From positions 1 through 37,022 of IMG/VR virus record IMGVR_UViG_3300048136_000075: 37,022 nucleotides of DNA; one strand, 5' to 3'. The position numbers and the translations under genes were made by a program. Of the stretch, positions 377 through 23,034 are shown piece by piece. The notes under the pieces are model-generated. The model made no database searches. It was not told where the DNA came from and worked only from the letters and a program-made list of their open reading frames with translations. Positions within the stretch are counted from its first letter, which is position 1. The number at the start of each line of letters is the position of its first letter. The DNA is from a virus.

Positions 377-3300
377 ATGATAGATTTTACAAACAAGACG
401 TTCAGAGAAACATACCGCGATTTCTATGACGCGAATGACGGTTACTATCGTGTTCTATACAACTCCGGTCGTGCACTTCAAGCTCGTGAACTAATCGAAC
501 AACAAACAATCATTCAAAAAGAGATTGCGCGATTTGGTCAGAACATCTTCAAAGAAGGTGCGATGGTCAATCCAGGCGGTGCGACTGTTGACAATAACCT
601 AGAATACATCAGGTTGACGCCTAGTAGCGACATTACAAGCGCTTCCGTTGGTGACGTGTTGACTAATGGAGAAATAGAATTTAAAATTCTAGAGATACAT
701 GCTCCTGTTTCCCCTAGCGAACTGGTCCCTTATGGCGAACCGGCAACGTTATATGTACAATACACAAACACTCTAGGTGTAACCAACACTACTAAATCGC
801 CCCGTGTTGATGCGACAGATATTCTTTCTTTCGCTGATGGGGTTGGTGGGGTTAATATGGTCGTGGGTCCGGATACGACCGTTACTGGACCCGACGGCTC
901 GGACTCAGTTATTTTTGCTTCTGGAAAGGCAACTAAAGCACATTTTTCATCGGGCGATTTCTTTGTACAAGGTCATTTTGTTTACTTATCGGCCGAAAGC
1001 GTTTTTATTGACAAGTATAGTGGCACTCCTACAGTAGACTTTGGCTTTAAAATTGAACAGAAAATAATCACCGAGGGCGAAGACGAAAAGTTGTATGATA
1101 ATCAGGGAGAAATCCCTGATAAAACCGCCCCAGGCGCACATCGTTATCAGATTAAACTAATTCCGTCTTCGCGTGAACAGGCGGGAGAAGATAACTTTGT
1201 ATTCGTTGCCCGTATCGTTAACGGTGTCATTACCCGCGAAATCAGCACGTTCGACGCCTACAATCGAGTCAACGACTTACTAGCTCTACGCACCAAAGAA
1301 GAATCTGGTGACTATGTTGTAGAAGAGTTCAGAGCAATCTTTGAAGATATGGATGACGAAACAAGCCTAAACTTAGACGTTACAGAGGGTGTCGCGTACG
1401 TAGACGGATATCGTTTAGAGGTGGGTACTACTGACATCACCGTACCGAAAGCGCGTGAGACGCGAACACAGACTCTAGAGTCGGTGCCTGCTGTATATGG
1501 TAACTGGATCTATATCGACCCAGACCGTACTCAAGGGTTTGGTCAATTAAACACGTTCGGTCTAGTTAATCTATTTGGAGTTTATCAAGGTGTTTCTCAA
1601 GTCTTGGGTTCTGCTCATGTTAGAGGCGTTCAACGAGATGGCGTTGGATACCGTTTGTATATCTTTGACATTAATATGTCAAAAATTGAGTATACTGACA
1701 GCGACGGTCAGACTGTCGTAACTAATGTCCGATTCCCGTTCTCAAGTGTACGTTACCTAGAGGATGAATTTGGGAATGATATCCCACTAAGACCTTTATC
1801 TTTCGATACAGATTCAGATCAAACGCCTCTTACATTTGACACCACACTATATGGAACATCTAATAACGACCTGTTATTCGCATTGCCATATAAATCTCCG
1901 GAACAAAACAGTATTCAATCCGCTTCTTATACATCACAAAAATTTAAAACAGAACAGCCAGTTGGCGGGATAATTACTACTGAAGGTGTTGAATCTTCTA
2001 GTTGGATAATTTCAGAAGTAAACGGACCAATTCTTCAAATCACCCCTACAGAAAATTCTGATAATACATCAACGTATTCCGGATTAGACGACAATAAGAT
2101 GTATGCGATCGCATACTTTAAGCAAGAGTCTATCTCCCCTAAAACAAAAAAAGTCACTACGGGATCGAAAATAATAAATGTGACTCAAGAAACAACGCAT
2201 ATTTCTTTGTCAATTGTCGACGCGATTTCAATAACATCTGTTCAACTAACCGCCGGCGGTACAACTACAGACATCACATTTCAGTTTGATTTAGATGGCG
2301 GTCAACGAGACAACTATTATGATATCGCAAAAGCTTTTGTAAAAGAAGGATACACTATCCCACACGGAACTGGCGTATCAATAGAAATTTCTTTTGAGTA
2401 CTACGAACGTATAGATGGTGGCAAATTCTTTGCTGCGAGCTCATACACTGGACTAGAATATGAAGACATTCCTTCACATACCACAATTAGCAGTGGAGAG
2501 ACAATCTCTTTACGTGACGTGATAGATTTCAGACCAGACCGTCTCTCGAATGGTAACTTTAGTATTTCCGAGCTACCGCAGAACGCCTCCTCAATTATAG
2601 TTGATGAAGTCGATTACTACCTACCGCGTACGGATATTCTTGTAGTGAACGCTACAGACAGTCGTGGAGACATCGGGTTTGGTGAGTTACAAGTTATACA
2701 AGGTCAGTCTGATATCGACCCTCGCGAACCAGAAATTCCCGCAGGATCACTACCATTATACAAGTTTACCTTGAACGCATATACATTTGACCGTTCAGAT
2801 GTCGTAAGTACATTCATTCCTAACCGTCGATTCACGATGAAAGATATCTCTAAGTTATCTGATCGTGTAGAGACTCTATATGAATTGACTGCGCTAAGCT
2901 TCCTTGAGACTAATACAAACGTCTTACAGGTATTAGATGCAAACGGAAACCCTCGTACTAAGGCAGGTTTCATCGCAGACAACTTCAGCACATTAAACTA
3001 TTCTGACGTACATAATCCAGCATACCGCGCATCGGTAGATCCAGACGGACTATTAAGACCGTCATTTGTTGAAAATTCTGTACGATTAAGGTATGATGCG
3101 ACTGACTTGAATAATAAAGTCTCTAAGAAAGGAGACCTTATTACCCTACCACATTCGGATGTGAATATAGTTTCTCAATTGTTAGCGACCGGAACAGACA
3201 ACATCAACCCGTTCGCAGTAATTACTCAAAATGGATTCATGACATTATCTCCGTCTTCTGACGAATGGGTAGAGACGAAACGACTTCCAGATATTATGCA

Positions 3301-5914
3301 GAATGTTGTACGTCGTATCACAACATACTTGCCTACTTTCTTCTCTCGGCCTAATAATAAAATTAGATCGAAAGTCACATCAAAGACGATTCAAGAATTT
3401 ATTGGTGAACGCATCTTAGACGTAGAAATTATTCCGTTCATGCGTTCACGCAAAATTTCATTTAGGGTTCAAGGGTTGAGACCTAACAGTCCTATGTGGG
3501 CATTCTTCGGCAACAAAGACGTAAATGATTGGGTGCGACCAGAGTCTACCTACGTCAACTTCTCTGACGACCCTACTGAATATGGAAATCAGTATGCTAA
3601 CGCGACAGAATATCCTTCAGAGTTGGGCGGTAAAGGTTCTCTAGTGACCGACGATAAAGGTGAGTTGATCGGTTCGTTCTTCTTACCTAATACACCAGAG
3701 ATTAGCTTCCGTACAGGACGTCAAGAATTTAAGTTGCTTGATATCAGTGTAAACAACGAAGAAGACTCTACGGCAGTCAGTCGTGCAGGATACACTTCAG
3801 TTGGTACAATTGAAACCATACAACGCACCATGCGTACAACGCGTGTCGTAGAAACAACTTACTGGCGCGATCCTCTTGCACAGACATTCTTCGTTGATCA
3901 AGTAGAAAACCCTAATGGAATTTTCTTAACGAAAGCACGAGTCTTTGTAGAGAGTAAAGACTCTGTCATCCCTATGCAGGTCCAAATTAGACCAGTAGAA
4001 AATGGAGTACCTACTAATCGAGTTCTACCAGGCTCATCAACGTTTGTTGATCCATCGAATATCAATGTAGTCCCGTTAACAGAAAATACAGATATCGAAG
4101 AAGTTAAAGAATCTCCGACTGAAATCACATTTGAAGAACCGATTTACTTGACACCAGGCGAAGAATATGCTATAGTGCTTCTTGCAGAATCAGTAGAATA
4201 TAATGTCTACACAGCACAGACTTATGAATTTGTCATCGGACCTTCACGTGAGAAACGAGTTTCGCGCCAACCTACGTTGGGTTCTTTGTTCATGTCGCAA
4301 AATGGTTCTACATGGACTCCAGACCAAACAAAGGATTTGATGTTTGAATTAGATCGCGCTGAATTTGACGCTTCGGGTGTGCTGCACCTAGAGAACGCAG
4401 AACTACCAAAGGTCACTTTAATTCAGAGTCCGTTCGAAACTACTGCGAATTCAAATAAAGTCAAAGTACAGCATCAGGGACATGGATTCAGTGCTGGAGA
4501 CTTTGTTACTTTCTCCGACGTTTCTAGTGATGTGGGTGGCATTTCAGCTTCTTCGTTGAACGGTTCGTTTGTTGTGGAAGATGCTGGGTGGCAAGGGTAT
4601 ACTATCACGACATCCGTATCCGCAAACAGTTCCGCTCAAGGTGGTGGTAACAACGTCACTGCAACTCAACAGGTTGTTTATGATCAGTACATTCCTCAAG
4701 TACAATCATTCTCTCCTAACTCCACAAGTATTCAGCCTACAGTAATCAAATCGTTGGCGGGTTCTTATGGAGGCAGTCGTGCATATCAACGGCATTCCTA
4801 TACCCAAGACCCACCTGTATCTAAAGTACAGAGTGTATCACTAAATGATTTAAATGTCAACACTAAACCAAATGTAGTTGCCACATCGGAAAACTCATCA
4901 GAAAAGACATTAAAGTTTAAGTTAGGTATGACAACAGGCGATCCTAAAGTATCCCCTGTGATTGACCTACAGCGTGTTTCGGTTGTTGCCCTAGAGAACG
5001 TTATTGATAACTCAAACGCAACTCAGCACATCACGACGCCTGTGATTATTGATGAACTGTCAGAAGGTCTAAAGATCATTTTTGCCGCCAACCGCGCAAG
5101 AGGCGCAGGTTTCAAAGTTTATGCGAAAACTTCTCTGGATGAAAATGAGTTCTCAGAAGCGGGGTGGTCGTTGATCGAAATCGACACGCCGATGCCTACA
5201 GATGAGAATCCAGATATCTTCCGAGATTACGAGTATACTCTAGACGCAGATCCGTTCACTGTTTTCCAAGTCATGATCGTTATGACATCTGATAATTCAT
5301 CTAAGTCTCCGATGATCACCGACCTCCGTGCACTTTCATTAATTACTGCAAGTGGTCTACAAAAGTTTGGTGTTCCAGTAGATCTCGATTTGAATCCTGC
5401 ACCGGCTCCGGCACCAAGTCCTGAACCAGAACCACAACCAGAACCGGAACCAGAACCAGAACCTGAACCACAACCGGAACCAGAACCTGAACCACAACCA
5501 GAGCCAGAACCGGAGCCAGAACCGGAGCCAGAACCTGAACCAGACTTCTATTCAAGGTCATCTCCGCAATATTACTTCTCTATCGCTCAGGTAGTAGATC
5601 AAGGGACAGAATATAATATCGCTTCAATTTACTGGGACGGTATCTATAAACCTTATGACACAAGTCAAACACAAGGTTTGGATGATACGCAGATCGTTTC
5701 TATTGACGCCAATGATGGATATACCTATTTCAAGGGCGCTCTAGAAGAATTAGATCAAAGCAATCCAGGCATCGCTATATTCTACCATCGCATCTCTAGA
5801 GAGTTGACTCCAGCGCAAAGTTCCGGAACCAGTTCTGAAACTTCAGGCGCAGGTGGTAGCGGGGATAGTACAGGCAGCGATTCTACTCATGGTACCGATG
5901 TGGCGCAACACTAA
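377..5914 (+). CDS. DUF4815-type virion structural protein, large baseplate/tail protein
   Basis: This encodes 1,845 residues from ATG at 377, with AAGG at 367-370 as a reasonable ribosome binding site. The N-terminus ([20 protein letters not shown], then [20 protein letters not shown]) is the signature I associate with DUF4815, a domain of large structural proteins of marine T4-type phages that sit at the baseplate periphery. The body is long, beta-rich and without obvious membrane segments. Near residues 1674-1723 there is a Pro-Glu/Gln dipeptide linker, then a separate C-terminal domain of about 75 residues (starting [15 protein letters not shown]) and a Ser/Gly/Thr-rich tail. Codon use shifts locally around 640-1120 and 1680-2400 (more GGG, ATA and TTA), which hints at exchanged internal domains. 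It probably anchors fibres or acts as a gp9/gp10-like adaptor; the exact role is unknown. Confidence 0.8.
5396..5545 (+). repeat. Pro-Glu dipeptide repeat linker inside the DUF4815 protein
   Basis: About 50 codons alternate proline with Ala, Glu or Gln (first APAPAP, then runs of EP and QP), encoded by repeated cca-gaa, ccg-gag and cct-gaa units. Synonymous proline and glutamate codons are mixed, so it is not a perfect microsatellite. Such PE/PQ stretches form stiff extended rods in proteins such as TonB (established knowledge). Here the stretch would hold the C-terminal domain away from the body of the protein. Confidence 0.9.
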
Positions 5915-8906: not shown

Positions 8907-9377
8907 ATGTTAAAATCAAATACAAAATGTTTTGTCAATCAACACGGACAGATTGTTAGTCTTATAGAAGTTTATTCTTCTGATGACAATTATGTGGATG
9001 GGACGGTTGACTCTAACGGAATAACTATTCAGTCTTGGGACGAATCTTTAAATGTCGCTAGTGCTCATGAAGCCACTCAAAATTATTATTGGGACGGATC
9101 TTCATGGCAGTCCAGAACCCCCTTTCCTTCTCCGTATCATGTCTGGGAAAATGCATCATGGTCTTTTGACACTGATAGATTCTTTGATAAAGTGCGAAAA
9201 CTAAGAAACGAAAAATTAATGGCATCTGATTGGACGCAGACTGTGTCGGATTCGCCACTAGATTCTGATCAAATAGATACATGGGCAATTTATCGACAAG
9301 AATTACGTAACATCACAGACGTTCTAGAAGGAATTGAAAGTCTGGACGATGTCCCTTGGCCTGATACCCCATCATAA
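8907..9377 (+). CDS. Phage tail assembly chaperone-domain protein (Phage_tail_APC type)
   Basis: This encodes 156 residues from ATG at 8907, directly abutting the previous stop. The C-terminal 60 residues carry the hallmarks of the Phage_tail_APC family: RNEKLMASDWTQTVSDSPL, then TWAIYRQELRNI, and a Trp-Pro pair close to the end. In that family the region is about 60 residues and is often fused to or encoded beside tail fibre genes. The N-terminal 90 residues (SIIEV-like strands, YYWDGSSWQSRTPFPSPYHV) form a small unknown beta domain. It is the last gene of the run, since a terminator follows within 25 bases. A chaperone for folding or trimerising the upstream tip proteins is the most likely role. 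Confidence 0.75.
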   Translation: MLKSNTKCFVNQHGQIVSLIEVYSSDDNYVDGTVDSNGITIQSWDESLNVASAHEATQNYYWDGSSWQSRTPFPSPYHVWENASWSFDTDRFFDKVRKLRNEKLMASDWTQTVSDSPLDSDQIDTWAIYRQELRNITDVLEGIESLDDVPWPDTPS

Positions 9378-9496: not shown

Positions 9497-12400
9497 GTGT
9501 CAGCATCTAGTATCCCACTAAAAATTAAAAATACTAATGGTGACCTACAGGAATTTACACCGTCAGAAGAATTATATCTTTCTTATGCGGTGGGACAAGC
9601 ATTGGCAGAGGCATCTGCTGGTGAAGTCGGAGATATCAGTTTAACTGGTGATGTTAATATTGGTTCATTTACGGACGCGTATTTTAATGAATCAGCGGGT
9701 ACTCACCCTATATCTAACATTACCTCTACTACAGTAACCACACCCCTACGACAGGTGGGTGGTGCTGCAGATGAAACTGGTGCAGACTTTGTTCGTCCTG
9801 TGGGTTATTATGAATCTGGCCCAAATCCAGGCTTCTACGAAATGGTAGACGGAGATTTGGATAATCTTGCAAGTCGTGTACTCAGTAACATGGTCCAGAA
9901 TGACTATGTCGGTACATTCAAACTTTCCAGTACATCACCTGGCGCAGACTATGCCGTTTTTATTGAGAATGTTTTCTCAGACACGCATGGTGATGGAACA
10001 GTAACTAATTACAACATTTATCAACGTGTGACGATGCCTGTGGTTAACGCAGTGCGCCCAGTTGCTATTTGTTACGATGGATCATCTAACTTTGATGGTT
10101 TCAAAGAAATGTCGGATGCACAGATCAAGTACACACTTGGTCAACGTATTAAGACACTCCGTGGCACTTCTGGTGCGATTGGTTCTTATCAACTTCGTTC
10201 GGCTGCACAAGGTGTACCAACACTGCCTGGTACATGGGTATCTGTTGGTGACGCAACGAACACGCGTCGTACTATTGTTAATAGTTCATACTCTCGCACA
10301 CGTGCTTCTTCATATGCACGTACACGTATCTCCGCATACACACGCGATCGAGTTTCAACATACACACGCAATAGTGTAAACACTTTCTCTCGCACTTTTG
10401 TTGGAGACTATGTAGGTACATACAATAGAGATTTCGTTGGAAACTATTCCCGCGATTTCGTCGGCGAGTACACACGCACACGTCCATCTTCATATGAAGG
10501 GACTTATATTCGCAACCGTGTTTCTACTTACTCGGCTGATTACACTCGTACACGCGTCTCCTCTTATACAGGAACCTACTCACGCACTCGTACATCCGCG
10601 TATTCGGACACTTATGCAAGAACCCGTGTCTCAACATACGTTGGAACATATTCGCGCACACGCACTTCTGCGTACTCTGGCGCATATGCTCGTAATCGTG
10701 TCTCAACATATACTCGCAATCGTCTAACTGCATTTACTGGTTACTTTGCGGGAACTTACTCACGCGCACGTGTTTCAGTTTATACACGCAATCGCGTACA
10801 GAACTTTACGGGTACATTCACTCGTTCTCGTTCTTCTGCATACACTCGTGGCCGTGTTTCTGCTTATGCAGGAACTTACTCACGTACTCGTAACTCTGCC
10901 TATTCAGGCGTTTACTCTCGTACTCGTGTATCTTCATACACTGGCACATACTCTGGTACATATTCACGAAACCGTGTATCAGCCTATGCAGGAACTTATT
11001 CGCGTACCCGTAACTCTGCTTACACAAGAACATCAACACGCACACGTACTTCCGCATACTCTGCAGATTACACACGAACCCGCATCACTAACTATACTCG
11101 CGACCGTGTGACTAACTTTGCAAATGCCTACGCTCGTGCTCGTGTTTCTACTTACACACGCAATCGTGTGACTAACTTTACAGGTGCGTTTACTCGCGGC
11201 CGTGTTTCCACATATACACGTGATCGTGTTACAAACTATGCTGGAAACTTCATTGGAAACTATTCGCGTAACTTTGAAGGCAACTATTCACGTAACTTTA
11301 CCGGAAACTACTCTCGTGGTTTTGCAGGTAACTTCGTAGGAAACTACGCAAGGGTTTCTACTCGCACATCGGCACGTACTCGTTACTCTGCTTATGCCCG
11401 TACATCAACACGTACTCGCACATCAGCATACACTCGCGATCGCGTAACTAACTTCGCTGGTAACTTTATCGGCAACTATGCTCGCAACTTCGTTGGAGAT
11501 TATGTAGGTAACTACAGTCGTACATTCGTAGGCGACTTCGCGGGTAACTATACCGGAAACTACGCAACGACATTTACTGGCGACTTTGTTGGTAACTATG
11601 CTCGTGGTTTTGCTGGGGATTATGCTGGCAACTACACAGGAAACTATACTACAACATTTGCAGGTAACTTCGCAGGTAATTATGCTCGAAACTTCGTTGG
11701 AGACTTTGTAGGAGATTTCGTAGGTAACTACGCTCGTGCATACGCTGGCAACTTTGCTGGCGACTACGTAGGTAATTATGCGACCACATTTACTGGTGAC
11801 TTCGTAGGCAACTATGCTCGTGGTTATGCTGGTAACTATGCTGGCGACTTCGTCGGTGAGTATACTCGCACCTCAACGCGTACATCTACTCGTACACTGA
11901 ACTACACACGAACATTGTACTATGTTGGCGACTTTACAGGCAACTATGCTCGTAACTATGTTGCAGACTATGCTCGTACTCCAGCCTACACTCGTGAACT
12001 TTATTACGCAGGAGATTTCGTAGGAAACTATGCTCGTACTCGTACTGGTTCATATGTGGGCGACTATGCACGAACACGTGTTACTAACTATGAAGGCAAC
12101 TTCGTAGGAAACTACGGTCGTACTCGTACTGGCAGCTATCTTGGTGACTACACTCGTGGCGTAACATATACTGGTGACTACACAGGTAATTTTGCTGGAA
12201 CTGCAGACTATACTAGAAACAGTACTGCTGGATTTACACGTAACGTCTCATCAACTCGTACCTCAACACGTGTATCAACGGTCGACTTCACTCGTGACTC
12301 AACTCGTGTTTCTACTGGGTCTGGTGGTACCATAACTAACGCATATTCACAACCAACATTTGTTAATCCCACCGCCCCGTGGACAGCTTGGAAGGTAATA

Positions 12401-14686
12401 TACGAGGGAGGGGTTGGAACTTCGGAAATTTGGATAAATGATGTCTATAAAGGTTCGACCTCAGCCACAGCTACATCGGTAACTCTTGGTGGTGTTTCAT
12501 ATACACGAGGCACTCAACAGGGAGGGATGGGCCGGGCGCCTAATTATCAAACTTATTATGGAGTTACTTACAATGGATCAACGGACTACACAGGTAATTT
12601 TACCGGCAACTATATTGGTGGTAACTACACTGGCGACTTCGTAGGAAACTACGCTGGAACTGCGACATACACTGGTGATTTTACCGGAAACTACACTCGT
12701 AATGTTACTTCTACTCGTACATCCACACGTAATCGCGCTTCAACATTAAACTATCAACGCAACCGTGCATTCTCATATGCCGGAGATTATTCTCGTACAC
12801 GTGTTACCAACTATGCAGGTGACTTTGTTGGAAACTATTCTCGTAGTCGTCCGTTCTCGTATGAAGGCAACTATGCACGAACATCAACACGTACTCGTGT
12901 AGCGACAGGTTACTACACTCGCACATTATACTACACTGGTAACTATGCGACGGCGTACACTCGTAATCGTGTTCAGACATTTACTGCGACTGGTAACTAT
13001 ACGCGTACTGGATACTATGCGGGTGATTATGTAGGAAACTATGCACGTACATCTACTCGTACTTCTACACGTACGCGATACAGTGCATACAGCCGAACTC
13101 GTATCACAAACTACGTAGGTGACTTTACTCGTACATCTACTCGTACGTCTACACGCACACGATACAGTGCATATGCTCGTACTCGTGCGACAAACTATAC
13201 GCGTACTCGTGTATCCGCTTATGTTCGCGATCGTGTAACAAACTACGTAGGAAACTTCACACGCGTTTCTACAATCACGTCCACTCGTACACGTTACAGT
13301 GCATACGCAAGAACACGCATCACAGACTACATAGGCGACTTCACACGCGTTTCTACTCGTAACTCTACTCGTAATCGTGGATCTGCATACGCTCGCACAT
13401 CAACGCGTACAAGAGGTTCTGCGTACACTCGCGATAGAGTAACAAACTTTGCTGGTAACTTTGTTGGCAACTATGCTCGCAACTATGCCGGTGACTTTGT
13501 AGGTAACTATACACGTGGTTTCGCGGGTGAATATGCAGGTAACTTTACGGGTGAGTACACGCGTACTTCTACTCGTACACGTTATTCAGCTTATGTAACT
13601 ACTCGTGTTTCTGCATACATTCGCAACCGTGCTTCAACATATGCACGTGATCGCGTAACTAACTATGCAGGCAACTTCGTAGGTAATTACGCAACGACAT
13701 TTACCGGCAACTATACTCGCGACTTCGCTGGAGACTTTGCAGGTAACTATGCTCGTACATTTACTGGCAACTACTCACGCAACTTCGCTGGCAACTTCAT
13801 CGGTGATTTCGTTGGAGACTTCGCTGGTAACTACGTAGGCAACTACGCCCGTGACTTCGGTGGAAACTTTGCTGGAAACTATACTCGTGGATTTGTTGGT
13901 GAGTACGCTGGTACTTACAACACTACATTCACTGGTAATTACACTGGTGCATACTCTGGTACTTATTCACGCGGATTTGCGGGTAACTACACAGGTGCAT
14001 ACTCAAGTGGATTTGTTGGTAATTACGCAGGAACATATAATACCACATTTACTGGAAATTATGCAAGAGCATTTGCTGGTAATTATTCACGCGACTTTGC
14101 TGGAGACTTTGCCGGTAACTACGCACGAACATTTGCTGGTGAATACACTGGTGCTTATGCAAGTGACTTCGTAGGTGACTTCGTCGGTAATTATGCTCGT
14201 GGATTTGCGGGTAACTACACTGGTACATACTCACGCGACTTCTCCGGCCAATACGCAGGTAATTATGCTCGCGGATTTGCTGGTGAGTACGTAGGTAACT
14301 ACTCTCGCGGATTTGCTGGTGAATACACTGGCGCATATACTCGTGACTTCGGTGGCAACTATGTGGGCAACTACTCTCGTACATTTACTGGTGAATATAC
14401 AGGAACATACTCACGTGACTTCGTAGGTAACTATGCACGTGTCCGCGTCTCTGCATATGCACGTGTACGTAACTCAGCTTACTCTGGTGCATACTCACGT
14501 AATCGTGACTCTGCATATGTCGGTGATTTCACAGGTAACTACTCACGCACATTTGGTGGTAACTACTCGCGTGATTACGTAGGCAACTATGCAAGATCGT
14601 TCTTGGGTAACTATGTAGGTGCGACGATTTCAGATACACTTACAGAGGTAACTGAAACATATACATTATATGTACGTGTTGCATAA
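9497..14686 (+). CDS. Giant Tyr/Arg/Gly tetrapeptide-repeat virion protein (fibre-like)
   Basis: This encodes 1,729 residues from GTG at 9497, with GAGAG at 9484-9488 as the ribosome binding site. Residues 1-263 are a normal globular N-terminus (SIPLKIKNTNGDLQEFTPSE) of a type I associate with fibre-like proteins of T4-type marine phages, so attachment to the virion is likely. Residues about 264-1708 are tetrads such as YTRT, RVST, STRT, FVGD and YAGN, in constant four-residue register apart from one inserted residue and a unique island at about 941-1030. Lys, Cys, His, Met and Trp appear to be absent from the repeats. The last about 20 residues (SDTLTEVTETYTLYVRVA) are ordinary sequence. The gene sits alone between a terminator/late promoter and a second hairpin. 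A glycosyltransferase and an oxygenase-like gene follow downstream. The function is unknown: a long adhesive fibre, a solenoid or a multivalent sticky chain are possible. Confidence 0.85.
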   Translation: MSASSIPLKIKNTNGDLQEFTPSEELYLSYAVGQALAEASAGEVGDISLTGDVNIGSFTDAYFNESAGTHPISNITSTTVTTPLRQVGGAADETGADFVRPVGYYESGPNPGFYEMVDGDLDNLASRVLSNMVQNDYVGTFKLSSTSPGADYAVFIENVFSDTHGDGTVTNYNIYQRVTMPVVNAVRPVAICYDGSSNFDGFKEMSDAQIKYTLGQRIKTLRGTSGAIGSYQLRSAAQGVPTLPGTWVSVGDATNTRRTIVNSSYSRTRASSYARTRISAYTRDRVSTYTRNSVNTFSRTFVGDYVGTYNRDFVGNYSRDFVGEYTRTRPSSYEGTYIRNRVSTYSADYTRTRVSSYTGTYSRTRTSAYSDTYARTRVSTYVGTYSRTRTSAYSGAYARNRVSTYTRNRLTAFTGYFAGTYSRARVSVYTRNRVQNFTGTFTRSRSSAYTRGRVSAYAGTYSRTRNSAYSGVYSRTRVSSYTGTYSGTYSRNRVSAYAGTYSRTRNSAYTRTSTRTRTSAYSADYTRTRITNYTRDRVTNFANAYARARVSTYTRNRVTNFTGAFTRGRVSTYTRDRVTNYAGNFIGNYSRNFEGNYSRNFTGNYSRGFAGNFVGNYARVSTRTSARTRYSAYARTSTRTRTSAYTRDRVTNFAGNFIGNYARNFVGDYVGNYSRTFVGDFAGNYTGNYATTFTGDFVGNYARGFAGDYAGNYTGNYTTTFAGNFAGNYARNFVGDFVGDFVGNYARAYAGNFAGDYVGNYATTFTGDFVGNYARGYAGNYAGDFVGEYTRTSTRTSTRTLNYTRTLYYVGDFTGNYARNYVADYARTPAYTRELYYAGDFVGNYARTRTGSYVGDYARTRVTNYEGNFVGNYGRTRTGSYLGDYTRGVTYTGDYTGNFAGTADYTRNSTAGFTRNVSSTRTSTRVSTVDFTRDSTRVSTGSGGTITNAYSQPTFVNPTAPWTAWKVIYEGGVGTSEIWINDVYKGSTSATATSVTLGGVSYTRGTQQGGMGRAPNYQTYYGVTYNGSTDYTGNFTGNYIGGNYTGDFVGNYAGTATYTGDFTGNYTRNVTSTRTSTRNRASTLNYQRNRAFSYAGDYSRTRVTNYAGDFVGNYSRSRPFSYEGNYARTSTRTRVATGYYTRTLYYTGNYATAYTRNRVQTFTATGNYTRTGYYAGDYVGNYARTSTRTSTRTRYSAYSRTRITNYVGDFTRTSTRTSTRTRYSAYARTRATNYTRTRVSAYVRDRVTNYVGNFTRVSTITSTRTRYSAYARTRITDYIGDFTRVSTRNSTRNRGSAYARTSTRTRGSAYTRDRVTNFAGNFVGNYARNYAGDFVGNYTRGFAGEYAGNFTGEYTRTSTRTRYSAYVTTRVSAYIRNRASTYARDRVTNYAGNFVGNYATTFTGNYTRDFAGDFAGNYARTFTGNYSRNFAGNFIGDFVGDFAGNYVGNYARDFGGNFAGNYTRGFVGEYAGTYNTTFTGNYTGAYSGTYSRGFAGNYTGAYSSGFVGNYAGTYNTTFTGNYARAFAGNYSRDFAGDFAGNYARTFAGEYTGAYASDFVGDFVGNYARGFAGNYTGTYSRDFSGQYAGNYARGFAGEYVGNYSRGFAGEYTGAYTRDFGGNYVGNYSRTFTGEYTGTYSRDFVGNYARVRVSAYARVRNSAYSGAYSRNRDSAYVGDFTGNYSRTFGGNYSRDYVGNYARSFLGNYVGATISDTLTEVTETYTLYVRVA
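10285..14623 (+). repeat. Tetrapeptide (12-nt) repeat array in the coding sequence
   Basis: About 340 consecutive four-residue units are encoded, interrupted only at 12317-12586. Position 1 is Tyr or Phe in most units (Arg in RVSx units, Ser in STRT units), position 2 is a small residue (A, V, T, S), position 3 is Gly or Arg (Ser in RVSx units), and position 4 is N, D, T, S or A. Octads YxRx-RVSx dominate some blocks and FVGN/YAGD units dominate others. Synonymous codons are freely mixed between units, so the amino-acid pattern is better conserved than the DNA. Confidence 0.9.
12317..12586 (+). other. Non-repeat island domain inside the tetrad array
   Basis: About 90 residues (about 941-1030) interrupt the array. 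They contain Trp, Lys and Met, which appear absent from the repeats (PWTAWKVIYEGGVGTSEIWI, then GTQQGGMGRAPNYQTYYG). Codons such as GGG, CGG, CCG and ATA are used here but rarely in the repeats. It looks like a small beta domain inserted in frame. Tetrads resume at DYTGNFTGNYIG. Confidence 0.75.
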
Positions 14687-14789: not shown

Positions 14790-15251
14790 ATGAGTTATAA
14801 GCGTTGGATGGACAATGCGTTCTGGGAAACGGACGAAAAGAAAGAACTGAACTGTATCCTAGAACTTGAAGATGATGTTGGTCGTGTTACACGTCAACAA
14901 ATGTTTTTATCCCGTCATGATAAGGACGGTAGTGAGAACGAACTGTTTAATGAAGTTGTTGAAGCATTAGGCGAACAACGTATTGATGAAGAAACAGAAG
15001 CCCGTGTCGTTCGTAAGAAGGCAGAGGCAGAAGAAGATAAGATACGTGAAGAAGAACATCAAAAGGCACGTAAGTTAGAAAAACTGTTCAACTACAAACT
15101 AGAAGCGTTTGAGGTTGAGGAGATTAAAAACTCGAAGAACCGCAAGTTAAAGGCAAAACTGCGTCGGGCGAAGTCAAAGATTGAAGTAGATATGTACTCA
15201 ATCATGATTCTGCAAGAACAACTAGAGGCCGAAGACAGTGGAGAAGAGTAA
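14790..15251 (+). CDS. Charged coiled-coil protein of unknown function
   Basis: This encodes 153 residues from ATG at 14790, with GGAG at 14779-14782 seven bases upstream. The first about 60 residues include MSYKRWMDNAFWETDEKKEL and look compact. Residues about 65-145 are very rich in Glu, Lys and Arg, with long helical runs (EEDKIREEEHQKARKLEKL, NSKNRKLKAKLRRAKSKI), so an extended coiled coil is expected. I do not recognise a named family. It opens the short run that carries the glycosyltransferase and oxygenase genes, and its end overlaps the glycosyltransferase start by 14 bases, so translational coupling is likely. It could be an assembly chaperone, a scaffold for the modifying enzymes or a virion component. 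Confidence 0.75.
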   Translation: MSYKRWMDNAFWETDEKKELNCILELEDDVGRVTRQQMFLSRHDKDGSENELFNEVVEALGEQRIDEETEARVVRKKAEAEEDKIREEEHQKARKLEKLFNYKLEAFEVEEIKNSKNRKLKAKLRRAKSKIEVDMYSIMILQEQLEAEDSGEE

Positions 15252-15966
15252 AGGATTTTTATTAGTTGCGTCCAAGAAACGCAACTTTTATTTGTACGCA
15301 CTAAATCTCGCAGAGTCCATTAGAGACTACTATGAAGATTGCAAGATTTGTTTGGTGACCGAAGAACGTTTTATTGACGATCGTGGTCGAGAAGTCGCGG
15401 ATGATATCATCTTTTGTGATGATCACTACCGCGCCAAGTTGTGGGGAATGGCTAAGTCTCCATACGACTTGACAATGTACATTGACGCTGACATGGAATG
15501 TGAGCACGAAGACATTGTGAAAGTTTGGGATGAAATGAAAGACCACGATGTGGTGTTTTCTGCGTTAACAGATGATAGAGATTACATCTACGCAGAACGC
15601 GACTTCTCTACACCAGAAGGTATGGCGAAGTTTACATTATGTGGTGGTGTCTGTTTATATGATATGAGCAAACCGATTGTGCGTGAGTTCATGGACGATT
15701 GGTGGGACTTGACATTCAGACAGATGAATGATTCTTGGTGGCCAGAAGGGTATGCAGACAGTCTCAAGTCTTGGGATCAGTTTTCACTCTGGTGGTTGAC
15801 CGAGAAAGAAGAAAAGTATAAGGACCTCAAGGTTGGTATCTTTGATGACGACTTGAGGTGGAATTATTACAATGCCCTCAATTGGGCACGAACGAGACCT
15901 GAGACGGGACCGGTAATTTTAAGACACTTCTCGGCTGGGTTAAACAAGGATACTCCAATCGTATGA
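15238..15966 (+). CDS. Glycosyltransferase, GT-A-like
   Basis: This encodes 242 residues from GTG at 15238, inside the end of the upstream gene. Later in-frame starts would remove the first beta strand (KGFLLVASKKRNFYLYALNL), so GTG is preferred. The fold signals are an N-terminal Rossmann-like strand, then LTMYIDADMECEH at residues 78-90, where D83-A-D85 is the DXD-type nucleotide-sugar/metal site, then LCGGVCLYDMSK, which resembles the acceptor-side segment of GT-A enzymes. A Trp-rich stretch (DDWWDLTFRQMNDSWWPEGY) is unusual and may bind acceptor. Such small GT-A enzymes are frequent near fibre genes in marine T4-type phages. The substrate is unknown: virion proteins or host surface sugars are both possible. 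The ATGA overlap with the oxygenase gene downstream suggests a joint role. Confidence 0.75.
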   Translation: MEKSKGFLLVASKKRNFYLYALNLAESIRDYYEDCKICLVTEERFIDDRGREVADDIIFCDDHYRAKLWGMAKSPYDLTMYIDADMECEHEDIVKVWDEMKDHDVVFSALTDDRDYIYAERDFSTPEGMAKFTLCGGVCLYDMSKPIVREFMDDWWDLTFRQMNDSWWPEGYADSLKSWDQFSLWWLTEKEEKYKDLKVGIFDDDLRWNYYNALNWARTRPETGPVILRHFSAGLNKDTPIV

Positions 15967-16667
15967 CACAGGTAAACGATCAATATCTAAAGCATGTAGA
16001 TGTAAACAACCCAGAGTTGTTAGAGGTTTTAGACCAGTATGCCAAATTGCATACTATGCAGGGTTTTGAAAAGAACTGTCACTTGACTGCAGCAGAACAT
16101 ATTCGTCAGCGTTCATACTACGTTGGCGAAGGTTATATGAATGACATCGTTGCGATGGGAAAGGGTCATGACGGATTCCCTGAAGAGATGGTTGGATATA
16201 ATTTCAAACTATCCGATCGTGCGCACAAGATGTTTGAAAAAGATGCAGACCCTATCTTTAAGCGTGACATGACACATCACCTACGTGATCTGAACGACAA
16301 GATGATGAATTTCTTGTCGGTTAAGCACAACGCACTTGCAGCAGTCTATCCGCCAGGCGGATTCATCTCATGGCACAACAACGCAAATGCGCCAGGTTTT
16401 AATCTAATCTTCTCTTACTCAGAAGATGGTTCTGGTTATTTTGATTACATTCATCCAGAAACTAAAGAAGTCATTCGTTGTCAGGACAAGCCAGGCGTAT
16501 GGACTTGTAAGGCAGCATACTTCGGTCACTATGACGAACCGGAAAAGTTAATGTATCATGCTGCTTCTACGGATGACTGGCGTGTTACTGTTTCTTATGT
16601 TTTTGATTGGTCAGAAACATCCGAAGAATTTCGTGAGATGGTACTTGACGATATTTCTGCGGTTTAA
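15963..16667 (+). CDS. 2OG-Fe(II) oxygenase-like protein
   Basis: This encodes 234 residues; the ATG is fused to the previous stop as ATGA, a mark of translational coupling. The C-terminal half has the layout of a double-stranded beta-helix oxygenase: GGFISWHNNANAPGFNLIFS (H138-N-N140) for the first metal ligands, SGYFDYI, WTCKAAYFGHY, then H199 in YHAASTDDWRVTVSYVF with R207 eight residues later as the 2-oxoglutarate anchor. The second canonical ligand (Asp/Glu of HxD/E) is Asn here, so activity or metal binding may be altered. I recall the same HNN motif in cyanophage relatives, but that is memory, not a search. The substrate is unknown; hydroxylation of a virion protein before glycosylation is one possibility. 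Confidence 0.7.
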   Translation: MTQVNDQYLKHVDVNNPELLEVLDQYAKLHTMQGFEKNCHLTAAEHIRQRSYYVGEGYMNDIVAMGKGHDGFPEEMVGYNFKLSDRAHKMFEKDADPIFKRDMTHHLRDLNDKMMNFLSVKHNALAAVYPPGGFISWHNNANAPGFNLIFSYSEDGSGYFDYIHPETKEVIRCQDKPGVWTCKAAYFGHYDEPEKLMYHAASTDDWRVTVSYVFDWSETSEEFREMVLDDISAV

Positions 16668-16685: not shown

Positions 16686-17036
16686 ATGGCGACTTACGAA
16701 GATTTTACAATTGATCAAGGTGCAGACCTAGCTCTACAGTTAGAGTTAGTGAACCCAGATGGGTCTAAAAAAGATCTTACTGGGTATTCCGCGGCCGCCA
16801 AAATGAAAAAGACATATAGAAGCACGGAGTCAATTGACTTCACTGCCGTGATTCCAGATCCTTCTTTAGAGGGTATTGTTACAATCTCTTTGACCAATTT
16901 ACAAACTGATCAACTATCAACGCGTGGCAGATATGTCTACGATGTTGAGATCAGTTTTGTAGATGAAGAAGGACACACTATAATAGAAAGAGTACTAGAA
17001 GGCAAGATAAAAGTCAACCCTTCTGTAACGAGGTGA
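16686..17036 (+). CDS. Small virion structural protein of the marine T4-type group
   Basis: This encodes 116 residues from ATG at 16686, 18 bases after the oxygenase stop, with purine-rich AGGAATAGG upstream. It begins MATYEDFTIDQGADLALQLE and contains DLTGYSAAAKMKKTY and RGRYVYDVEISFVDEEGH, ending GKIKVNPSV. I recognise this as a short beta-sandwich protein conserved in marine T4-type phages and listed as a virion structural protein, with general similarity to N-terminal domains of siphophage upper-baseplate proteins. It lies four bases before the next gene. It probably forms an adaptor that joins fibres to the baseplate; no catalytic motif is visible. Confidence 0.7.
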   Translation: MATYEDFTIDQGADLALQLELVNPDGSKKDLTGYSAAAKMKKTYRSTESIDFTAVIPDPSLEGIVTISLTNLQTDQLSTRGRYVYDVEISFVDEEGHTIIERVLEGKIKVNPSVTR

Positions 17037-18408: not shown

Positions 18409-21400
18409 ATGGCATTTAGGCAAATTAAATCACCTGCTCTGGCCGATAAGGCCGTCATCAATACAAAACTTGATGAGAGCGCGGTACAGGGGCAAGCCGA
18501 ACTACAGGGAATGGTTAACCCTGCAGATTGTTTTACCCTATTGTACGATGTAGGTTCAGACTCACTTAAGAAAATTGGCGCAGATGACTTCATCGCATCG
18601 TTCTCTACGGACGACATCGCTGAAGGCACTGAAACAAATTCATCTAAGTACTTCACTGACGCACGTGCTAAAGAAGCAGTCGCACAAGATATCGCAGACG
18701 CGGTAGCAACTGAATCTTCACGCGCATCAGCTGCTGAAACTCTACTACAACAAAACATCGACGCAGAAGAAGCGGCACGTATCGCTGCTGATGCGACTCT
18801 AACTGCGGATCTAGCTGCAGAAGTTACACGTGCTACTGCGCGTGAAGATGCAATTGAACTTGCATACCAAACTGCAGACTCAGCTCTAACCACTCGTATT
18901 GACAACATTGTTAGCAATACTGATCCAGCTGCTCTAGATTCACTTGCAGAAATCGTTACTGCGTTCCAAAACGCAGACAGCGTTCTAACTGCATCAACAA
19001 TCGCAAACTCAACAGCAATCACAAATGAAGTTACACGTGCAACTACTGCAGAAGCTGATCTACAAAGTCAGATCACTGCAGAAGTTACTGCTCGTACTTC
19101 AGGCGACACTGCACTTCAAACTGCACTTAATACAGAAGAATCTGCTCGTATCGCTGCTGACAACGCATTGGACGCTCGACTAACTACAGAAGAAGGCAAT
19201 GTAGATACTCTACAATCTGGCCTTGCTGCTGAGATCGTTCGTGCAACTGCTGCTGAAGCGGTTAATGCTCAAGCAATTCAAGACGAAGAAGATCGTGCAA
19301 CAGCGGCAGAAGCTGCAAACGCACAGTCTATCCAAGATGAGATCTCTGCACGTGCAACTGCTGACACTCAAGTCCGCACTGACATGACTGCATTGATTAA
19401 CTCTGGTGACGCTGCAACTCTAGTATCTGCAAAAGCACACGACGATCTATTGATCGGCGATGCAACTGTAGATGGTACTACAGGAAACACAGTAACTGCT
19501 CGTATCGCATCTGCAGAAGCTGCATCTAAGTCACACGCTGACTCAGGTGTTGCGGCAGAAGAAGCTGCACGTATTGCAGGCGACTCTGACCTACAAGCAG
19601 GTCTTGACGCTGAAATCGCACGTGCTACTGCAGCAGAAGGCGTACTAACATCTGACCTAGCGGCAGAAGTTACTCGTGCAACTGGTGTTGAAGCAGGTCT
19701 ACGTACTGACGTTGACGCGGTTCAGTCACAAGTTACAACAATCCTTGGTGCTTCACCAGAAACTCTAGATACACTAGAAGAGATCGTTGCTGCATTTGAA
19801 GATGCGGATTCAGACATCTCTGCACTAGTATCATCTAACACTACTGCTATTTCAACAGAGGCATCTGTACGCGCTTCTGCTGATACTGCACTACAAAACG
19901 CGATTAACGCAGAAGCGGCAACTCGTGGTACTGCAGACGCAGGTTTACAGACTCAGATTGACAACATCACTCTAGATTATGTCAATGCTGACTCAGACGT
20001 ACTATTCGCTGCAAAAGCATACACTGACCAAGAAGCAGATCTACATCAAGCGGCTGCAATCGCACACGCTGATGCACAAGATGCTGCCCTAATCGGTGAC
20101 GCAACAGTAGACGGAACTGTCGGTAACACTGTTACTGCACGTATCCTAACTGCTAAGCAAGAAGCGAATGACTTCACTACTGCACAGGTTACTGCAGAAG
20201 CAGCAACTCGTTCAGCGGCAGACGACGCACTTTCTCTACGCACTACTGCGCTAGAAGGTGAGATGGATGCGGTTGAGGCACTAGCTGCACAGAACGAAAC
20301 AGATCTACGTGCAGAAGAAGTTGCACGTGCTGCTGGCGATGCGACTCTACAGTCTAACATCGACTCAGAAGTAACTGCTCGTACTAACGCAGACACTGCA
20401 CTACAGAACAACATTGATGCAGAAGCAACAACTCGTGCGAACGCTGATTCAGACCTAACAGCATCACTTGCAGCAGAAGTTGCTCGTGCTACTGGTATCG
20501 AAGGTGGTCTACGCACAGACGTTAACACAAACACTGCTGCAATCGCACAGAACGCAGCTGACCTAACGGTTGAAGTTACACGTGCACAAGCGGCAGAAGC
20601 GGCTAATGCACAGGCAATCGCTGACGAAACTACTCGCGCTCTTGGCGTTGAGGGTGGTCTACGTACAGATGTTGATGCCGTAACTACACGTGTTGACCAC
20701 ATCGTTGGTACATCACCAGAAACTCTAGACACACTACAAGAAATCGTTGCTGCATTCGAAGACGCAGACTCAGATCTACAGAATGTTATTTCTGCAAACT
20801 CTGGTCGTTTGACTGTCAACGAAGGCGATATCGATGCTCTTGAAGTACGTGCATCTGACCTAGAAGGTCGTGCAACATCACTAGAAGGTCGTGCAACTGC
20901 TCTAGAAACAGAACAGACTCTACAAGGTGGTCGTCTAACAGTTAACGAAGCAGACATCGACGCTCTAGAAGCGAAGATTGGTTCTTCTGACGAAACTCTA
21001 GACACAACTGCGCAGACTCTAACTGGTGCGATCAACGAAGTACACGCTGAAACAGACGTTAACACTGCTGGTCTTGCAGCTGCTGTTGCACGTGCTGATG
21101 CAGACTCAGACGCACTTGCTGCTGAGATCTCAACACGTACTCTAGAAGACTCTGCAATCCGTTCTGAGTTCGCTGCGGCAGATGTCGTAGTAACTAACGC
21201 GTACATCGCGGCAGACGCTGTAGTCAAGTCAGAGGCGGCGACAGACGCTACTACTAAGGCAGACACTGCAGAAGCAAATGCTAAGACTTACGCAGACGGC
21301 ATCGTTGCAAACGAAGCTACTCTACGTGAGAACGCAGATAACGTCCTAGACGGTAAGATCGCTACAGAAACAAATGCACGTCAAGTTGCTGACAACGCTC

Positions 21401-23034
21401 TAGACTCACGTCTAACGGTTGTTGAAGGCGAAATGACTGCAACACAAACAGCTGCTGGCGTTAACGCTGACGGCACTTACGCAACTCCATCCGGCACTAA
21501 CTACATCAATCTATCTACATCTCTTGCAGATGCAGACCAGAAGTTGGACGCGGCAATCAAGGCAGTCGATACAGGTCGACTATCTGCTGAGTCTTCACTA
21601 CAGGCACAGATTGATGCAGAAGAAGCTGCTCGTATCGCTGGTGATTCAGATCTAACTGCATCTCTAGCGGCAGAAGTTGCCCGTGCAACTGCTGCTGAAG
21701 TTGCTAACGCAGGCGACATCGCAACTAACGCTGCGGCAATCGCTGCTGAATCAACTCGTGCGCAAACTGCAGAAGCAGATCTACAGTCACAGGTTGACTT
21801 CATCAAGTCAAACACTGACTCTGCTGCACTAGACTCACTAACAGAAATCGTTGCTGCTTTCCAATCTGCAGACGGTACTCTAACAGGTCTAGTATCACAG
21901 AACCAAACTGACATCGCGGCTAACGCTGCGGCGATTGCAACTGAAACTTCAACTCGTATCGCAGAAGACACTGCAATTCGTGGTGAGTTCGCAGCTGCTG
22001 ACGTAATCCTACAAGCTGCAGTAGACACTAAGGTATCTAAGGCTGGCGACACAATGACTGGTGTCCTTAACATGGGCAACAACAAGGTCGTTGCAGTTGC
22101 TAACGGTACCGATGCTACAGACGCAGTTAACAAGGGTCAGTTGGACGCAGGTCTTGCTGCACAACACATCTCTGTATTCTCAACAGATAATCTAACTGAA
22201 GGTAGTAACGAATACTTTACTCCAGCACGTGCTCGTGCTTCAATCTCTGTCACAGACGTAGACGGTGAAGGCGACGTATCTTACAACAGTTCAACAGGTG
22301 TTCTATCAGTATCAACTGGTAAGGCATTCGTTGAGTTGGAAGACGTTACTGATTCATCTCTAGGTACTGCAAAAGCAGGATTTGTTGCTCGTGTCCGTAC
22401 TGACGGTACTGGTATCGAACTTGTTGATCCAACACAACTTCAGTTCAATGACGCACAACGTCAAACACTAAACGGTGACGGTTCACAAACAGTATTTGCA
22501 CTAGATTTCGCAACTACTAACCAGAACTCGTTCGTGTTTGTTGGTGGTGTCATTCAGGATCCAACAACTCACTACACAATCGATGGTCCTAATCAGACAA
22601 TCACATTCACTTCTGCTATCCCAGTTGGCACACAGGCGGTTGTAATCGCTCAGTCTACTAACTCGGTTGGTGTCCTAGATCCTAAGTCTGTTGGTGTTGA
22701 AACACTAGCTGACGAAGTCAAGGCATTCATTCAGGGTGAAGACGTATCTGTAGGTACATCTGCAACTGTAGTATCTTCGTTCGATTCAACTGTTCACCGT
22801 TCTGCTAAGTTCATCGTAACTGTAGATCTAGGTGGTCAGCACGAAGTTCGTGAGTGCATGGTAATCCATGACGGAACATCTGCATATATAACAGAGTACG
22901 GCATCGTTTATACAGGCGCAAGTCTACTAGGCGACACCGACGTTCAAATGACAAATGGTTCAGTAGAACTAACATACACAGCTGTAAGTGCTGGTGCAAC
23001 CGTTAAGGTCACTGCTACTTACGTTGACGTATAA
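18409..23034 (+). CDS. Long coiled-coil tail fibre protein
   Basis: This encodes 1,541 residues from ATG at 18409, with TAGGAG at 18395-18400 eight bases upstream. The N-terminus (MAFRQIKSPALADKAVINTK) is a fibre-attachment type seen in marine T4-type phages, followed by FSTDDIAEGTETNSSKYFTD. Residues about 85-1210 are an Ala/Glu/Asp/Arg/Thr-rich coiled coil built of 18-residue units (LQxxIDAExARATAAExx) with four copies of the LDxLxEIVxAFxxAD motif. From about residue 1220 come fibre modules: MTGVLNMGNNKVVAVANGTD, STDNLTEGSNEYFTPARARA, FVFVGGVIQDPTTHYTIDG, and a C-terminal domain with HRSAKFIVTVDLGGQHEVRE and TAYITEYG-like sequence that is common at the ends of such fibres. It should trimerise. 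It is shorter than, and related to, the downstream giant gene. Confidence 0.85.
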   Translation: MAFRQIKSPALADKAVINTKLDESAVQGQAELQGMVNPADCFTLLYDVGSDSLKKIGADDFIASFSTDDIAEGTETNSSKYFTDARAKEAVAQDIADAVATESSRASAAETLLQQNIDAEEAARIAADATLTADLAAEVTRATAREDAIELAYQTADSALTTRIDNIVSNTDPAALDSLAEIVTAFQNADSVLTASTIANSTAITNEVTRATTAEADLQSQITAEVTARTSGDTALQTALNTEESARIAADNALDARLTTEEGNVDTLQSGLAAEIVRATAAEAVNAQAIQDEEDRATAAEAANAQSIQDEISARATADTQVRTDMTALINSGDAATLVSAKAHDDLLIGDATVDGTTGNTVTARIASAEAASKSHADSGVAAEEAARIAGDSDLQAGLDAEIARATAAEGVLTSDLAAEVTRATGVEAGLRTDVDAVQSQVTTILGASPETLDTLEEIVAAFEDADSDISALVSSNTTAISTEASVRASADTALQNAINAEAATRGTADAGLQTQIDNITLDYVNADSDVLFAAKAYTDQEADLHQAAAIAHADAQDAALIGDATVDGTVGNTVTARILTAKQEANDFTTAQVTAEAATRSAADDALSLRTTALEGEMDAVEALAAQNETDLRAEEVARAAGDATLQSNIDSEVTARTNADTALQNNIDAEATTRANADSDLTASLAAEVARATGIEGGLRTDVNTNTAAIAQNAADLTVEVTRAQAAEAANAQAIADETTRALGVEGGLRTDVDAVTTRVDHIVGTSPETLDTLQEIVAAFEDADSDLQNVISANSGRLTVNEGDIDALEVRASDLEGRATSLEGRATALETEQTLQGGRLTVNEADIDALEAKIGSSDETLDTTAQTLTGAINEVHAETDVNTAGLAAAVARADADSDALAAEISTRTLEDSAIRSEFAAADVVVTNAYIAADAVVKSEAATDATTKADTAEANAKTYADGIVANEATLRENADNVLDGKIATETNARQVADNALDSRLTVVEGEMTATQTAAGVNADGTYATPSGTNYINLSTSLADADQKLDAAIKAVDTGRLSAESSLQAQIDAEEAARIAGDSDLTASLAAEVARATAAEVANAGDIATNAAAIAAESTRAQTAEADLQSQVDFIKSNTDSAALDSLTEIVAAFQSADGTLTGLVSQNQTDIAANAAAIATETSTRIAEDTAIRGEFAAADVILQAAVDTKVSKAGDTMTGVLNMGNNKVVAVANGTDATDAVNKGQLDAGLAAQHISVFSTDNLTEGSNEYFTPARARASISVTDVDGEGDVSYNSSTGVLSVSTGKAFVELEDVTDSSLGTAKAGFVARVRTDGTGIELVDPTQLQFNDAQRQTLNGDGSQTVFALDFATTNQNSFVFVGGVIQDPTTHYTIDGPNQTITFTSAIPVGTQAVVIAQSTNSVGVLDPKSVGVETLADEVKAFIQGEDVSVGTSATVVSSFDSTVHRSAKFIVTVDLGGQHEVRECMVIHDGTSAYITEYGIVYTGASLLGDTDVQMTNGSVELTYTAVSAGATVKVTATYVDV

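Follow-up and report, generated by a model that had tools for sequence, protein, structure and literature searches.

The best described counterpart of the protein considered here is the tip of T4 gp37, a six-stranded antiparallel needle that carries a receptor-binding head at its turn (PMC9659904, PMC7291167). The base domain of gp37 is formed by residues 811-881 together with residues 1010-1026, a core contact between G921 and F970 is made between subunits, and in T4-like phages the known long tail fibres are trimeric (PMC6957217). A different architecture is that of the triple-stranded beta-helix of T4 gp5 and VgrG, in which an octad repeat (VxGxxxxx) is carried by three interdigitated chains that wrap one way and do not fold back (PMC4576200).

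We analyzed a stretch of viral DNA of 37,022 nucleotides (IMG/VR record IMGVR_UViG_3300048136_000075, positions 1 to 37,022; hereafter the window) that encodes a protein composed largely of four-residue units, or tetrads. An initial annotation had placed this protein in the virion as a fibre which no sequence family fits, and that part of its reading stands. Its view of the protein as one uniform repeat structure does not, and its statement that there was no described structural class for such a protein leaves out of account T4 gp37, the needle of which folds back and has the same architecture on a small scale (PMC6957217, PMC7291167). Based on the analyses below, it is highly probable that the protein is a phage tail fibre in the form of a fold-back hairpin, likeliest a trimer, with a variable distal knob that is probably receptor-binding. 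A search of the literature for tetrapeptide or four-residue repeat fibres found none.

The tetrad protein and its relatives

The tetrad protein is encoded by a single ORF on the + strand (9497-14686, GTG start, 1729 aa). Its non-repeat N-terminal domain (aa 1-263, 9497..10285, +), presumed to be a base or attachment domain, is followed by arm A, which we read as the outward tetrad arm (aa 265-939, 675 aa; 10289..12313, +), a central island at the putative turn (aa 940-1029, 12314..12583, +), arm B, the candidate return arm (aa 1030-1708, 679 aa; 12584..14620, +), and a C-terminal tail, ATISDTLTEVTETYTLYVRVA (aa 1709-1729, 14621..14683, +), which is presumably the last strand of the base domain. 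The arms are rich in Tyr, Arg and Gly, and where they are paired they lack His, Cys, Lys, Met and Trp.

Autocorrelation analyses supported the initial description of a tetrad register with an aromatic residue at a fixed position. Between residues 263 and 930 the autocorrelation of the aromatics was +0.55 to +0.65 at lags of 4n and about -0.2 at all other lags, there were lag-12 peaks in the DNA of the fibre gene, and the N-terminal 263 residues had no lag-4 signal. The accompanying claim that the register does not slip before residue 940 did not hold, as the aromatics are out of phase at about residues 800-900 (as in 'TLNYTRTLYY') and scrambled at about residues 901-1040. The deeper period of the arms is two: identity at lag 2 is 0.12, compared to 0.02-0.04 at odd lags, which is what a beta strand with one face directed inward should show. 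This period of four built on two, with no five- or three-residue period and no Pfam match, does not indicate a pentapeptide-repeat or collagen-like protein.

Positions four residues apart that have the same residue share a codon at a frequency of 0.440, compared to 0.436 by chance, which implies that the pattern is old and has been held by selection on the protein rather than being the product of recent slippage. Recent slippage was also considered as the source of the periodicity itself and was ruled out by this randomization of codons together with the shortness of the exact DNA repeats, none of which exceeds 21 nt in the window gene at 12n spacings of 240 or less.

Sequence searches of Pfam, NCBIfam and the PDB with the tetrad protein returned no match, PHROGs returned a single weak match to a family of unknown function, and a scan of prokaryote genomes found no relative. 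Within IMG/VR, the N-domain (54-92% identical to its relatives there) recruited 68 loci, and those examined have tetrad arrays of varied length and a similar C-tail. Among named phages the closest is C48C1 (Kyanoviridae, 156 kb), in which no psbA is annotated. Its hypothetical protein WJE88074.1 is a homolog throughout, having an N-domain that is 77% identical and the same arms, knob and C-tail, but it differs in being 3347 aa long, with an arm A of 1028 aa and an arm B of 1958 aa that includes several inserted non-repeat domains. The window protein has the features of this C48C1-type family, namely the N-domain (MSASSIPLK..), two arms, a knob, an ETYTLYVRVA tail and the same downstream genes. 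In the C48C1 homolog (L001, 15012-25055) the inserted non-repeat domains, which differ from one another, are confined to arm B, and ~74 aa occur twice, either as a true duplication or through an assembly error.

Many more viral contigs with tetrad proteins were retrieved by a degenerate tetrad search, and the C-terminal ending ..ETYTLYVRxA is kept across the fibre superfamily. Two neighboring fibre genes of this kind are present in each of the contigs L082, L116, L121, L122, L124 and L132; in several of these two-gene contigs the N-domains differ while the C-tail, of the ETYTLYVRxA type, is alike.

Equal arms, mirror indels and paired residues

To measure the arms we used hand-chosen anchors, on the N-terminal side of the island the end of the last STRxS and on the C-terminal side the first YTGNF-like motif, as automatic detection by composition had misplaced the islands. 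The value of arm A minus arm B was -3 or -4 residues in each of the 14 relatives measured, whose arms are 419-675 aa long; the two lengths correlated at r=0.99999, with a mean difference of 3.1 compared to 53.6 in shuffled pairs. C48C1, with the inserts in its arm B, is the exception to this equality. In three relatives that have no island, the lone Trp of the arms sits -3, +1 and +4 aa from the exact midpoint. The 'extra Gly' that had been taken for a slip of the register at YIGGNY adjoins the island, and may be the reason that the arms of the window protein differ by -4 instead of the usual -3.

The length differences between relatives are mirrored in the two arms (positions are counted from the base). 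Relative to the window protein, L038 lacks 72, 20 and 28 aa at 64, 297 and 446 in arm A and 72, 20 and 28 aa (the latter as 12 and 16) at 70, 299 and 460-479 in arm B. Similarly, L039 differs from L038 by +28 and -4 aa at 431/487 in arm A and 431/488 in arm B, and L033 differs from L037 by -84 aa at 290 in both arms. In one of the +28 events an Arg-rich block was tandemly duplicated in arm A and faces a tandem duplication in arm B that is Tyr/Gly-rich; the paired inserts are partners, not copies of each other. A paired structure should give rise to such mirror indels, whereas independent repeats should not. The initial annotation had deduced that indels must occur in multiples of 12 bases. This was partly borne out, in that the net indels of the arms are mostly 4n residues (20, 28, 72 and 84 aa), but near the tip some steps are of 2 residues and there is even a net change of 13, and what is constant across indels is the equal change in both arms. 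(A mod-12 histogram of gaps from a whole-gene nucleotide alignment was dominated by the unalignable island and was not used as evidence.) In L026, relative to the 99.9% identical L024, there is a 72-nt deletion near aa 1443 in arm B only. A 41-nt exact repeat at a spacing of 72 is present at this site, and the deletion is possibly an assembly collapse or a real uncompensated intermediate.

When the arms of the window protein are placed antiparallel, residue i is opposite residue 1973-i, and every second pair belongs to a core face in which the members are unlike representatives of aromatic, Arg and Gly, or are Phe/Gly with Ser/Thr. Among the 3,691 core pairs of 12 proteins there were no R.R or G.G pairs, four Y.Y pairs and no Arg opposite a small residue. 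Of the 636 mirror pairs of the window protein, only two are of like residues and none sets Arg against a non-core residue, compared to 29.4 ± 4.2 (minimum 11 in 20,000) and 21.6 ± 4.4 (minimum 5 in 20,000), respectively, in tetrad shuffles, and to at least 15 and at least 9 at all other 4n shifts. The choice between Tyr and Phe depends on the partner as well, with Tyr found with Arg and Phe with Ser/Thr (chi2 78, p 1e-17), and the mutual information between the arms peaks at a stagger (delta) of exactly 0 in eight of nine sequences.

We also conducted a blind scan over all pairing sums, the score of which has no central anchor and hence removes the dependence on the hand-chosen ones. The predicted sum was returned exactly in nearly all non-identical relatives. 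The exceptions were L026, which has the 72-nt deletion, L068, which is shifted by 8, and C48C1, in which the inner arms pair at a sum of 2664 and the outer arms would be shifted by ~927 aa by the inserts; for L043 and L044 the sum is off by one residue owing to how the end is defined. The scan works on divergent fibres with other N-termini too. A clean sum was obtained for 19 of the 27 complete ORFs retrieved by pattern, all implying an N-domain of 261-294 aa, and a very different protein (L144, with QVPEQY-type repeats) follows the same Y.G/Y.R/F.G rule. The remaining eight ORFs gave no clean sum, which is likely due to inserted domains such as those of C48C1.

At the level of sequence comparison, then, the analyses establish equal arms, an antiparallel register, a pairing rule, mirror indels and, as described below, a replaceable knob. 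As each arm alternates aromatic and Arg/Gly residues along the core face under the pairing rule, a four-residue register results, and this register is the shadow of a larger two-arm pattern.

A putative distal knob and the neighboring genes

The central island is hypervariable and is replaced outright between relatives that are ~97% identical elsewhere. For example, L016 and L020 are 97% identical where aligned and all gaps between them fall between residues 846 and 1018. For the center of the protein as a single chain, AlphaFold2 predicted a six-strand beta-meander at aa ~964-1026 (12386..12574, +), with a pLDDT of 85-93 over most of it, and short strands just outside this knob; the pLDDT of the arms around the knob was ~30-50. 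One arm modeled with the N-domain as a single chain gave no fold (arm pLDDT ~25). A fold search of the PDB with the knob returned nothing below E 0.45. Its best viral fold match was to a Rhizobium phage protein described as 'receptor-recognising protein Gp38 domain' (prob 1.00, E 0.012), which we treat as a lead and not as proof. We consider the knob, the part that varies, to be a candidate receptor-binding domain that probably engages the receptor of the host.

The tetrad gene sits in a cluster in which the gene order is a DUF4815 protein, a tail-tip-fibre-like protein, an assembly chaperone, the tetrad protein, a 153-aa protein, a glycosyltransferase-like protein, an oxygenase-like protein and an L-shaped-fibre assembly protein, with very large fibre-like ORFs downstream of the latter. 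This location among tail-fibre genes supports the reading of the tetrad protein as a virion fibre. Such a hypervariable host-recognition cluster has been described in the pelagimyophages, which are related T4-like phages (PMC7029224). The chaperone-like gene (8907..9377, +) has similarity to PF16778 Phage_tail_APC (E 4.5e-13) and phrog_4912 (tail fiber assembly), and the product of the L-shaped tail fibre assembly gene (LtfC-like; 16686..17036, +) to phrog_3304 (E 6e-17), with a sub-threshold match to LtfC in Pfam.

The 153-aa protein (14790..15251, +) has no known function and is encoded next to the fibre gene in all loci of the family that extend far enough downstream. The glycosyltransferase-like protein (15238..15966, +), which is 82-100% identical across loci, has a DxD-like motif (YIDADME) and a Pfam match to Glycos_transf_2 at E 0.011, below the curated cut-off. 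The gene always adjacent to it (15963..16667, +) encodes a protein with no match in Pfam, NCBIfam or the PDB that we consider to be a putative 2OG-Fe(II)-oxygenase-like protein from our reading of a conserved HxN..H..R. These three genes (14790-16667) form a fixed set that follows the fibre gene wherever a family locus is long enough to contain it. It is possible that they hydroxylate or glycosylate the fibre.

Other large proteins encoded in the window have features of their own. The DUF4815 baseplate/fibre protein (377-5914) has a long Pro-Glu/Gln run near its C-terminus (aa ~1669-1737), to which Pfam gives a sub-threshold PARP match. The 1541-aa Ala/Glu-rich protein encoded at 18409-23034 has repeated AEVTRATAAEAANAQAI-like segments and resembles a long coiled-coil fibre, while at 23117-37021 an open ORF of >4,600 aa, with FG-GAP repeats in its C-terminal half, runs off the end of the window.

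A putative fold-back fibre and its described counterparts

We propose that the chain would leave the base domain (aa 1-263), extend as a single long beta strand (arm A, ~675 aa), turn at the distal end by way of a small beta-rich knob (aa ~940-1029) and return antiparallel and in strict register (arm B, ~679 aa), so that the last 21 residues would be back at the base. At 1.9-3.3 A per residue, such a rod would measure very roughly 125-220 nm. Every second residue would face the core, where facing residues would differ in type: Arg would face Tyr or Gly, an aromatic would face Gly or Ser/Thr, and like would never be set against like. The beta conformation, the trimer, the placement of both termini at the base and receptor binding are all features that we infer.

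A second set of exclusions bears on the state of assembly. In the 12 proteins, like pairs are absent at delta -4 (Y.Y 0, G.G 0) compared to 62 Y.Y and 17 G.G at delta +4, and R.R is almost absent at delta -2 (11) compared to delta +2 (398). Covarying changes of residue type between relatives have odds ratios of 8.7 at delta 0, 8.1 at -4 and 1.8 at +4, and some of these joint changes may arise from shifted alignment around paired indels. We read the exclusion at delta -4 as placing every A strand between, and in contact with, two B strands that are staggered by four residues, in a closed alternating assembly such as a ring of hairpins. By analogy to known fibres, the likeliest form is probably a trimer with six antiparallel strands.

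Because the facing pairs within a chain are indistinguishable in sequence from those between chains, and the stagger -4 contact demands only a closed alternating assembly, the antiparallel arms that face each other might instead belong to two different chains, or to an assembly with an even number of chains, such as a four-strand or domain-swapped dimer; the G921-F970 contact of T4 gp37 is, after all, between subunits (PMC6957217). We consider such an assembly improbable, since trimers are the form of the long tail fibres known from T4-like phages (PMC6957217) and a core of Tyr and Arg side chains would fit six strands more easily. We regard as very unlikely a one-way solenoid or triple-stranded beta-helix of the T4 gp5/VgrG type, in which the chain would pass through both arms on its way from base to tip, the island would be a mid-shaft bulge and the tetrads half-octads. 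Neither equal arms nor mirror indels nor the rule for facing residues would be predicted by this arrangement, and the octad VxGxxxxx is absent from the window protein, the autocorrelation of which has a lag-4 register and no octad dominance, although such shafts are frequent in known fibres and the related NVTG repeat of cyanophages has weak matches to gp5/spike proteins (E 0.07-9).

The Tyr/Arg/Gly-rich composition, which resembles that of disordered condensate-forming proteins, and the very low confidence of the AlphaFold2 monomer might suggest a disordered, low-complexity repeat that is phase-separating or gel-forming and makes no folded fibre, but the strict register, the matching of lengths to a single residue and the exclusions among facing pairs need a fixed three-dimensional register, and we find this reading hardly plausible. 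Least credible of all is that the arms no longer pair and owe their equal length and complementarity to an ancestral duplication or inversion, since tandem duplications do occur within the arms but inverted DNA gives no mirror-image protein, the arms are complementary and not similar (R-rich faces Y/G-rich), the rule persists despite randomized synonymous sites and later indels are compensated pairwise.

Returning to the fold-back hairpin, we think it fairly likely that these proteins constitute a large and as yet undescribed superfamily of marine phage fibres, each a 'protein duplex' with arms of up to ~1,000 residues, a discrete pairing code and a freely swapped tip knob. We have similar confidence that the code of such a duplex would consist of Y.R, R.G, Y.G, F.S, F.T and F.G, never pairing like with like, and it seems likely to the same degree that its length and register would change over time through compensatory mutations and through indels mirrored in the two arms, much as happens in RNA stems. 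If so, the fibres would provide a rare instance of a strand-register rule for a beta fibre that can be read from sequence, with the facing residues known over >600 residues and the fibre length, turn and receptor-binding knob predictable from sequence alone. They would also represent a natural protein case of compensatory evolution comparable to RNA stems, show how a phage alters the length of its fibre without loss of register and offer a modular rod, with steps of 4 or 28 residues, for protein design. In addition, widespread unannotated marine phage genes in the host-recognition cluster would gain an anatomy and a likely function.

Of the described systems, the triple-stranded beta-helix of T4 gp5 and VgrG resembles the window protein in being a regular repeat fibre with Gly and Asn/Asp positions. 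The structural protein of Synechococcus phage S-RIM2 (L002, Kyanoviridae) has short runs of NVTG/NLTG tetrads. These are alike in pattern ([N/D]-hydrophobic-T-G) and gave a weak tblastn match to the window protein, but differ in that the runs are short, Val/Leu are present instead of Tyr/Phe, and there is no Arg.

The likeness to the T4 gp37 tip (PDB 2XGF) is one of architecture, deduced for the window protein from its sequence: it would share with gp37 an out-and-back chain with two equal antiparallel arms and a head at the turn, and in both the large core residues of one strand face small or different ones. The G921-F970 contact and base residues 881/1010 of gp37 both give a pairing sum of 1891. 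At this sum the main core-face His residues are opposite non-His, mostly small, residues and F970 and F972 face G921 and G919, respectively, while in the middle one-residue bulges shift the face and F902 is opposite H989; our blind score over sums did not single out 1891 for gp37. The C-tail of the window protein (LYVRVA) resembles the last residues of gp37 (..NYIVRLA), a resemblance only and not evidence of homology, and the N-domain had no profile match to the gp37 collar/needle (hhalign probability of 0.1%). Consequently, we suggest that the window protein may work like the gp37 needle and make no claim that it is a homolog. The HxH iron-binding motifs of the gp37 needle are absent from its arms, which have no His, and where the core of gp37 is His/iron, that of the window protein would be Tyr/Phe-Arg-Gly-Ser/Thr. 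The two also differ greatly in scale, the arms of gp37 being ~45-50 aa compared to 419 to ~1,030 aa in fibres of the window type, with each arm of the window protein itself >10 times longer than its T4 counterpart.
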